Of a DNA stretch of 64,000 nucleotides, positions 14,833-41,253 are shown in pieces. The position numbers and the translations under genes are program-made. The notes beneath the pieces are model-generated. The model ran no database searches. It saw nothing but the letters and a program-made list of their open reading frames with translations, and had not been told where the DNA came from. This DNA comes from Acidobacteriota bacterium. Its GTDB lineage: Bacteria; Actinomycetota; Acidimicrobiia; Spongiisociales; UBA5794. The stretch is from assembly GCA_022562055.1 (NCBI GenBank), contig JADFQA010000013.1:1-64000 (forward strand), written 5' to 3'. How positions within the stretch are numbered: position 1 is the stretch's first letter; each line of letters starts with the position of its first letter.

Positions 14833-15093
14833 ATGAAAATTTCGATTGAATACTGCGTCGCCTGAAACTACACAGGCCGTGCGGTCAGCATGGCAGAAGG
14901 ACTGCTCAAAGAATTTGAGCAGTACATCGACGATTTTACTTTGATCCCCTCAAGAGGAGGCGTGTTCGAAGTGCAGGTTGGCGATACCTTGGTGTACTCC
15001 AAGATTGAGACTGAGCGCCACGCTGAGTACGAAGAGGTCGCGGCCCCGATCCGTAAGATTCTCGACAGGCCCGATCCCGAACCCACCCAGTAG
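14833..15093 (+). CDS. selW: SelW/Rdx-family selenoprotein with in-frame TGA (Sec11)
   Basis: ATG 14833 opens a frame that meets TGA at 14863-14865 and continues in frame to TAG 15091-15093, giving 86 residues if TGA is read. The N-terminus MKISIEYCVA-U-NYTGRAVS is the Rdx signature: a beta strand, then CxxC/CxxU at residues 8-11, with Sec at the second redox position as in selenoprotein W. The rest (AEGLLKEFEQYIDDFTLIPS, GGVFEVQVGDTLVYSKIETE, RHAEYEE, IRKIL) is the standard thioredoxin-like SelW domain. A SECIS-like hairpin follows the TGA (14876-14894). An internal ATG at 14890 would give a protein without its redox centre. The GTG of the EamA gene overlaps the stop codon. Confidence 0.8.
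14876..14894 (+). promoter_or_regulatory. Putative bacterial SECIS element downstream of TGA codon
   Basis: A 7-bp stem, GCCGTGC paired with GCATGGC (one G-U pair), closes a GGTCA pentaloop. The apical loop begins 17 nt after the TGA codon and opens with GG. Bacterial SECIS elements sit directly after UGA inside the coding region, with a stem and a G near the start of the apical loop at about this distance (established knowledge). Function here is inferred. Confidence 0.6.
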
Positions 15094-15992
15094 TGACCGG
15101 CAGCCGCAAGACTCTGTCGACCTCTGAGGGTTCGCACAGTGGCGACTTCCAGAAGCGACATTGGCTGCTCGTTGCCATCGTCGCTCTGGTGTTCGGTTCA
15201 GCTTTCTTTTGGATTGCACTTGCGCTGCGGTCCTTCGATCCCCGGTTCCTTGCCGTGGCCCGTGTTGCACTCGGTGCTGGCGCGCTGTCGCTGATCCCGT
15301 CCGCCCGCAAGAGAATCGAACGCGTCGACTACCTTCGGATCATCATTGCAGGTGTGGTCGGTCAAGCTGCACCAGCCATATTGTTCGCTCTCGCCGAGCA
15401 GCGAATTGAGTCTGCCCTGACAGGTATGATCACCGGTGCTGCTCCGATAACGGCTGCGATCTGGGCTGCCCTCTTTATGGCTAAATTGCCCCCTCGTCGG
15501 CGAGTTTTGGGGCTCGCCATCGGTTCCGTGGGCATCGTGATTCTGTCGCTGCCATCGCTGGGGGAGGGCGGTTCGAGTCTCCTCGGGGTGCTCTTTGTCA
15601 TCATTGGAATTTCGGGATACGGCCTCGCCGCGAACCTGCTTGTCCCGATGCAGCCGAAATACGGTTCGCCGACCGTTATTTTGTGGGCGCTGATTGTTGC
15701 GACAGTTGTGTTGGCACCGATCGGCATTCCGGCATACAGCGCGGGTGCGTCGTCGGAATCGATTGGTGCGCTTTTGATTCTCGGAGTGGTCGGCACCGGT
15801 TTGGCGCGGACGGTGCATGTGTCGTTGATCGGAAGAGTCGGGGCATCTCGTGGATCTGTGATCGGCTATTTTCTACCCCTTGTTGCCCTCTTCCTTGGCG
15901 TCGTTGTACTCGACGAGACCATTGTTGCGATTCAGCTCGTCGGTATGGTCGTGGTGGTGTTCGGCGCCTACGTCCTCAGCCGAGCCGACTGA
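15093..15992 (+). CDS. EamA/DMT-superfamily transporter (RhaT-like)
   Basis: A 299-aa membrane protein with about ten hydrophobic segments in two EamA repeats. The first covers residues 27-160 (VFGSAFFWIALALRSFDPRFLAVAR is typical of the repeat start), the second 170-297 (ending VALFLGVVVLDETIVAIQLVGMVVVVFGAYV). DMT permeases export small metabolites such as amino acids; the substrate is not readable. GTG 15093 overlaps the TAG of the SelW gene, so expression is probably coupled to it. Confidence 0.85.
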   Translation: MTGSRKTLSTSEGSHSGDFQKRHWLLVAIVALVFGSAFFWIALALRSFDPRFLAVARVALGAGALSLIPSARKRIERVDYLRIIIAGVVGQAAPAILFALAEQRIESALTGMITGAAPITAAIWAALFMAKLPPRRRVLGLAIGSVGIVILSLPSLGEGGSSLLGVLFVIIGISGYGLAANLLVPMQPKYGSPTVILWALIVATVVLAPIGIPAYSAGASSESIGALLILGVVGTGLARTVHVSLIGRVGASRGSVIGYFLPLVALFLGVVVLDETIVAIQLVGMVVVVFGAYVLSRAD

Positions 15993-36784: not shown

Positions 36785-37566
36785 GTGTCAGATACCGTCG
36801 CCCTCCCAGAAAAAATTACCGTCATCTCGACGGGTATCTCCGCAACATCGCTTGAGGAGGTCGCGGGTCTCATCGTCGACCCGCCGCCCGAGGGATTGAC
36901 GGTCGCCGTTTCGAACGTGCAGTCCGTAATGATGACGCGCTCTGACAAGGAGTATGCGGCTGCTCACGCTCAAACATCTGTCGCAACAACTGATGGCGTG
37001 CCACTCGTGTGGGCGTTGCGAAAGCTCGGGCGACCGGAGCAGACACGTGTTGAGGGTTTCGAGATAACGTCGCGTGCGATTGAACTCGGTCTTGAAAAGG
37101 GACGCCGCCACTTCTTTTATGGCACAACTGCGGACACGCTGGAACTATTGGAGACCAACCTGAAGCAGAAGTACCCATCTATCCAGATCGCCGGGACCCA
37201 TTCACCCCCATTCGGCCCGCTCACCGAGGAAACGGTGAAGGACGTCATCCAACGCGTCCGAGAGTCAAACGCTGACATCCTGTGGCTGAGCATGGGTCTT
37301 CCAAAACATGACATCTTAATGGTCAGGGCGCATCCTGAGCTTCCGGGTGTCTCCATCAGCGCGATCGGTGCCGTGTTCGACTGGTTTGCGGGGAACGTGA
37401 CAAAAGCACCCGAGTGGATGCAAAAGACCGGTCTGGAGTGGTTGTACCGCCTCTCCAAGGAACCGCGTCGTCTGTGGCGCCGCTATATCTACAACAACCC
37501 TGCCTACCTTGTCCTGCTCGGTGTTCAGGTCCTCAAGTTCAGATTCAAAAAGACCAAGGCGGACGC

Positions 37567-37570
<4 letters not shown>
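36785..37570 (+). CDS. WecG/TagA/CpsF-family glycosyltransferase
   Basis: A 261-aa GT26-family enzyme. [100 protein letters not shown] and [16 protein letters not shown] are the standard family blocks. It adds a sugar (ManNAc/ManNAcA type) to a lipid-linked intermediate in exopolysaccharide or teichoic acid synthesis. The GTG start overlaps nothing upstream; its stop overlaps the GTG of gmd by 4 nt. Confidence 0.9.
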
Positions 37571-38367
<797 letters not shown>

Positions 38368-41165: not shown

Positions 41166-41253
41166 GCGATCATCCAGAGCGGTTGAGGGACAGGCCCTTC
41201 GACACCGCGGCAACCGGGGTAACACACGGTGCCAATGCCTGAACGATGAGCGA
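41166..41253 (+). promoter_or_regulatory. SAM-I (S-box) riboswitch
   Basis: The core shows S-box landmarks in order: CAGAGCGGTTGAGGGACAG, GGCCC, GAcaCCgCGGCAACCGG and GGTGCCAATGCC with closing GATGAGCG. The 5' CGATCAT and 3' ATGAGCG strands can form P1 with one mismatch. It lies between a promoter and metH, so excess SAM should switch off methionine synthase. The family was assigned by pattern, without a covariance search. Confidence 0.85.

Follow-up and report, generated by a model that had tools for sequence, protein, structure and literature searches.

Among the selenoprotein families of the Sargasso Sea, the SelW-like proteins were the largest, with 48 genes (PMC1088965), and they also ranked first in the GOS samples, where 427 sequences carrying a CxxU motif were found (PMC2398784). 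Selenoproteins of Actinobacteria, SelW-like ones among them, were on record in 2006 for Symbiobacterium thermophilum, which was then placed in that group (PMC1794560). In a 2026 review the family appears as CxxU, with a single Sec (PMC13188914). The GTDB class Acidimicrobiia includes Actinomarinales (PMC7771536). Among open-licence papers, we found none that reports a SelW selenoprotein in Acidimicrobiia and none on selenocysteine in Actinomarina; the single match for Acidimicrobiia mentioned only SelA/SelB, in bins of sponge symbionts from various phyla.

We analysed a stretch of 64,000 nucleotides (the window) on contig 13 of a 2.93-Mb draft genome, which has 83 contigs and is 97% complete. 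One gene in this window almost certainly encodes a bacterial SelW-like selenoprotein of the Rdx family, in which the UGA at 14863-14865 is decoded as Sec via SelB and a downstream hairpin. It shares with the described bacterial SelW-like selenoproteins (PMC1088965, PMC2398784, PMC13188914) the size, the CxxU motif, the UGA at the second redox position and the SECIS element right after it. We see no essential difference between them; the window copy comes from a lineage, probably the Acidimicrobiia, for which we found no report of this protein.

The selW gene and its product

The predicted selW gene (261 bases; 14833-15093, forward strand) starts with the ATG at 14833 and ends with a true stop codon, the TAG at 15091-15093, which shares one base with the GTG that opens the following gene. 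The only interruption of the frame is the TGA at 14863-14865, the predicted Sec codon, which occupies the second redox position of the motif TGC GTC GCC TGA (C8-V-A-U11; 14854-14865, forward strand). The coordinates, the frame and the location of the TGA at the second position of a CxxC motif, as given in the original prediction, proved exact to the base. Upstream of the ATG, we see no clear Shine-Dalgarno motif. Translated with U for TGA, the predicted product has 86 aa including one Sec: MKISIEYCVAUNYTGRAVSMAEGLLKEFEQYIDDFTLIPSRGGVFEVQVGDTLVYSKIETERHAEYEEVAAPIRKILDRPDPEPTQ.

When C was placed at position 11, the protein gave a full-length match to the Pfam Rdx family PF10262 (residues 2-74, E 2e-20, 73.2 bits against a cut-off of 22.6), and it scored 61.5 bits with TIGR02174 (CXXU_selWTH), above the cut-off of 34.2. 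Both matches extend across the TGA, and the proposal that read-through yields a full-length Rdx/SelW protein is borne out by them. With the NCBIfam equivalog SelTWH_Campy (NF041051) the score was 77.7 bits, under the curated cut-off of 88. Judged by these profile scores, the predicted protein is a member of the wider family and lies outside the narrow NF041051 equivalog.

From the established biology of bacterial selenoproteins, SelB-GTP with Sec-tRNA(Sec) would be expected to bind the hairpin loop, and the UGA at 14863-14865 would be decoded in competition with release factor 2. This would give a full-length redox protein of the thioredoxin-like type, whose active site is Cys-x-x-Sec and for which established knowledge suggests a thiol/selenol role. 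If decoding failed, a 10-residue fragment would be released.

Directly downstream lies an ORF from the ORF list which we named an EamA/DMT-like transporter from its sequence (15093-15992, forward strand). Its counterpart in the same-genus genome L118 is 81% identical, and the transporter was not found at the SelW loci of the other relatives. The gene ilvD is found near SelW in several family members, and the locus shows no synteny with L018 or L019. A conserved neighbourhood was considered as added evidence and set aside as weak, since the transporter is shared only within the genus and synteny with L018/L019 is lacking.

The predicted SECIS hairpin

A bacterial SECIS hairpin is predicted at 14876-14894 on the forward strand, from its fold, its fit to the bacterial SECIS model and covariation in 28 relatives. 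It consists of a 7-bp stem (GCCGTGC, 14876-14882; GCATGGC, 14888-14894) and the pentaloop GGUCA (GGTCA in the DNA, 14883-14887). The stem begins 11 nt past the TGA, the gap from the TGA to the loop is 17 nt, and the calculated stability is -11.6 to -13.0 kcal/mol. The published bacterial SECIS model comprises a loop of 3-9 nt with G in the first two positions, a stem of 4-16 bp, a distance from UGA to loop of 16-37 nt and an energy of at most -7.5 (PMC13188914). The selW hairpin satisfies this model in its loop, its stem, its spacing and its energy; it is as originally described and does fit the bacterial pattern.

By itself the hairpin is only modestly significant. Its shuffle fraction is 0.05. 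Among 2001 TGA triplets on both strands of the window, 6.2% pass a filter like the published model and 1.0% have a hairpin as stable as that of selW. Taken alone, then, the hairpin is weak evidence, as 1-6% of the TGAs in the window do equally well. The weight of the case rests on the protein, the relatives and the decoding genes, which together are strong evidence.

In an alignment of 28 sequences, the stem positions pair in 90% of cells, compared with at most 48% when the partner strand was slid. The covariation score was 0.187 against 0.132 for shuffled data, and none of 500 shuffles scored as high, with relatedness still present in this shuffle control. Changes on both sides were found at three stem pairs. 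Part of the conservation of the hairpin reflects coding constraint (R-A-V-S/R-M).

Set beside bacterial SECIS elements of the E. coli fdhF type, the SelW element occurs in more than one register. In the 30 class loci that we fetched (L098-L127), as in the window, the stem mostly occupies nt 11-17 and 23-29 after the UGA and encloses an N-G-U-N-N pentaloop, whereas in most other phyla (L018-L096) it lies about 4 nt further downstream, with the G-U of the loop kept. The element has therefore shifted its register between lineages while the loop signature was retained.

Relatives, selection and the decoding of UGA

A protein scan of 84,980 species genomes, using search patterns without the Sec codon, gave 80 loci from many phyla. 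In all 80 the Sec codon is TGA and the first motif position is Cys, which makes C8 and U11 invariant. The nearest named match, L018, is an Actinomycetota MAG. Within the class, SelW was found in 154 of 395 genomes; every match among those listed has one TGA, and so do the inspected matches from the class that span the motif, with a single exception. That exception, in genome G004 (L145), is one of the weaker matches followed up and represents a true Cys form, YCTQC(HC). We detected neither selC at the threshold used nor selB at E 1e-60 in G004, which has probably lost Sec with conversion to Cys. Another weaker match (G148) is a fragment at a contig end that does not include the motif. Whether the column holds U or C, a check that the original prediction had proposed, is thus answered by TGA in all cross-phylum and nearly all class relatives.

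The same prediction held that selenocysteine is rarely reported for this kind of actinobacterium. This view does not stand, since besides the SelW genes we found tRNA-Sec in 246 of the 395 class genomes (62%). Both SelW and selC are present in 137 genomes, SelW only in 17, selC only in 109 and neither in 132 (Fisher p about 1e-19, with the kinship of the genomes not corrected for). Most of the 17 absences of tRNA-Sec are probably draft gaps, because 13 of these genomes have selB.

We compared the window gene with its relatives on either side of the TGA and found pS higher than pN both before and after it. After the TGA, the comparison with the same-genus gene gave a pS of 0.58 and a pN of 0.18; pooled pN/pS was 0.43 before the TGA and 0.55 after it. 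Both flanks are under purifying selection, and the suggestion that frame and protein pattern are conserved on both sides, against random decay, is upheld.

The host genome, searched family by family, contains all the genes by which a Sec-decoding organism is recognised. The tRNA-Sec gene selC (C24:4028-4118) aligns over its full length and scores 70.7 bits in Rfam (gathering score 47), and ARAGORN calls it tRNA-SeC(tca). The genes selB (C10:31106-32872, 343 bits) and selA (C10:32891-34222, 423 bits) lie in tandem and both score over their cut-offs, and selD is located at C35:17550-18479 (395 bits). Hence the search for selA, selB, selC and selD, proposed as a check from the start, recovered all four, and the lack of selB or selC that would have spoken against the prediction was not observed. 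An in-frame TGA also occurs within selD, in GAG-U-GCK, which we take to be the active-site Cys/Sec position of SelD. Like known selenophosphate synthetases with Sec, selD would be a second selenoprotein gene of the host; SelD belongs to a family other than SelW and bears on Sec decoding only.

These data also bear on other explanations of the TGA. An ordinary Cys-type gene could have become a pseudogene by a recent nonsense mutation, as a single base separates TGC from TGA and the source is a draft of 83 contigs. We regard this as very improbable, given that the TGA is common to all 80 distant relatives and to the class, that purifying selection persists downstream of it and that the genome has the Sec machinery. 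An error of sequencing or assembly at the TGA might be suspected in an assembly that also holds a suspicious TGA in a second tuf copy and a damaged gmd-like gene (both described below). The codon is, however, also TGA in independently assembled genomes, among them the same-genus genome L118 and genomes in a single contig (G002 and G322, for example), and such an error is hardly credible here. Genome-wide reassignment of UGA to Cys or Trp, for which nothing speaks except the in-frame UGA, is highly unlikely, as UGA ends 6 of the 11 neighbouring genes checked, tRNA-Sec, selA, selB and selD are present and the in-frame TGAs found in the genome are mostly at redox-motif positions. Decoding of the selW UGA as Sec remains by far the best reading.

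Further selenoprotein candidates and a double-UGA SelW

Among the families searched, three more genes of the host genome are likely selenoproteins. These candidates are an AhpD-like protein with the motif GCHYU (L155, G000:C23:1496-1657; SECIS loop GGTCT, spacing 18), a second CMD-family protein, CMD-like, with CFYU (L156, G000:C47:4412-4525) and a PrdB/GRDB-like protein with VUPVC (L157, G000:C52:7559-7798; loop GGTCG, spacing 17). The hairpins of L155 and L157, with GGUC pentaloops at spacings of 17-18, are of the same kind as that of SelW. In the peroxiredoxin-family genes (PF00578) of the host genome we found zero in-frame TGAs, and inspection by eye of the window's other in-frame TGAs at C/U motifs gave no second convincing selenoprotein.

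In a second copy of tuf (EF-Tu; L013, G000:C12:54628-55506), an in-frame TGA replaces the codon that encodes Gly in the intact copy L012, and a few scattered differences separate the two copies; an assembly error is more likely here than Sec. In a gmd-like gene of the window (GDP-mannose 4,6-dehydratase, named from sequence; about 37560-38360, forward strand), about 100 middle codons are missing and the frame changes around 37985-38070, so the gene is a misassembly or a pseudogene. The sole Rfam match in the window is a SAM (S-box) riboswitch at 41167-41252 (forward strand, 71.4 bits).

A different form of SelW was observed within a single genus of the class, the only representative of its family among the genomes examined. 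Here, 16 of 20 SelW genes (L140-L143, L162-L173), including those of two single-contig genomes, carry TGA at each of the two redox positions (T-Y-U-V-P-U), and the remaining four copies (L158-L161) have C-V-P-U, with Cys at the first position. With Cys placed at both positions, one double-TGA SelW matched Rdx at 7.9e-15. Ahead of the first TGA, the N-terminal strand shows conservation at the protein level, with codon-level evidence there coming from few sites. These genes have one imperfect hairpin, whose loop lies 17 nt past the second TGA and 26 nt past the first. Judged from these sequences, a single SECIS element probably decodes two UGAs that are two sense codons apart, which would give a diselenide SelW (U-V-P-U). 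This double-UGA form appears to be undescribed in open-licence papers. The step from C-V-P-U to U-V-P-U offers a natural series for studying how one SECIS element handles two codons.

Overall, both the protein family and the method of decoding are well known, and they are common in this bacterial class. Our data correct the annotation of the window gene, which automatic gene callers would cut at residue 10. Moreover, the use of Sec is common in the class, including streamlined members of roughly 1 Mb (in one family, genomes of 0.6-1.1 Mb), and selenium use is therefore predicted for these organisms.
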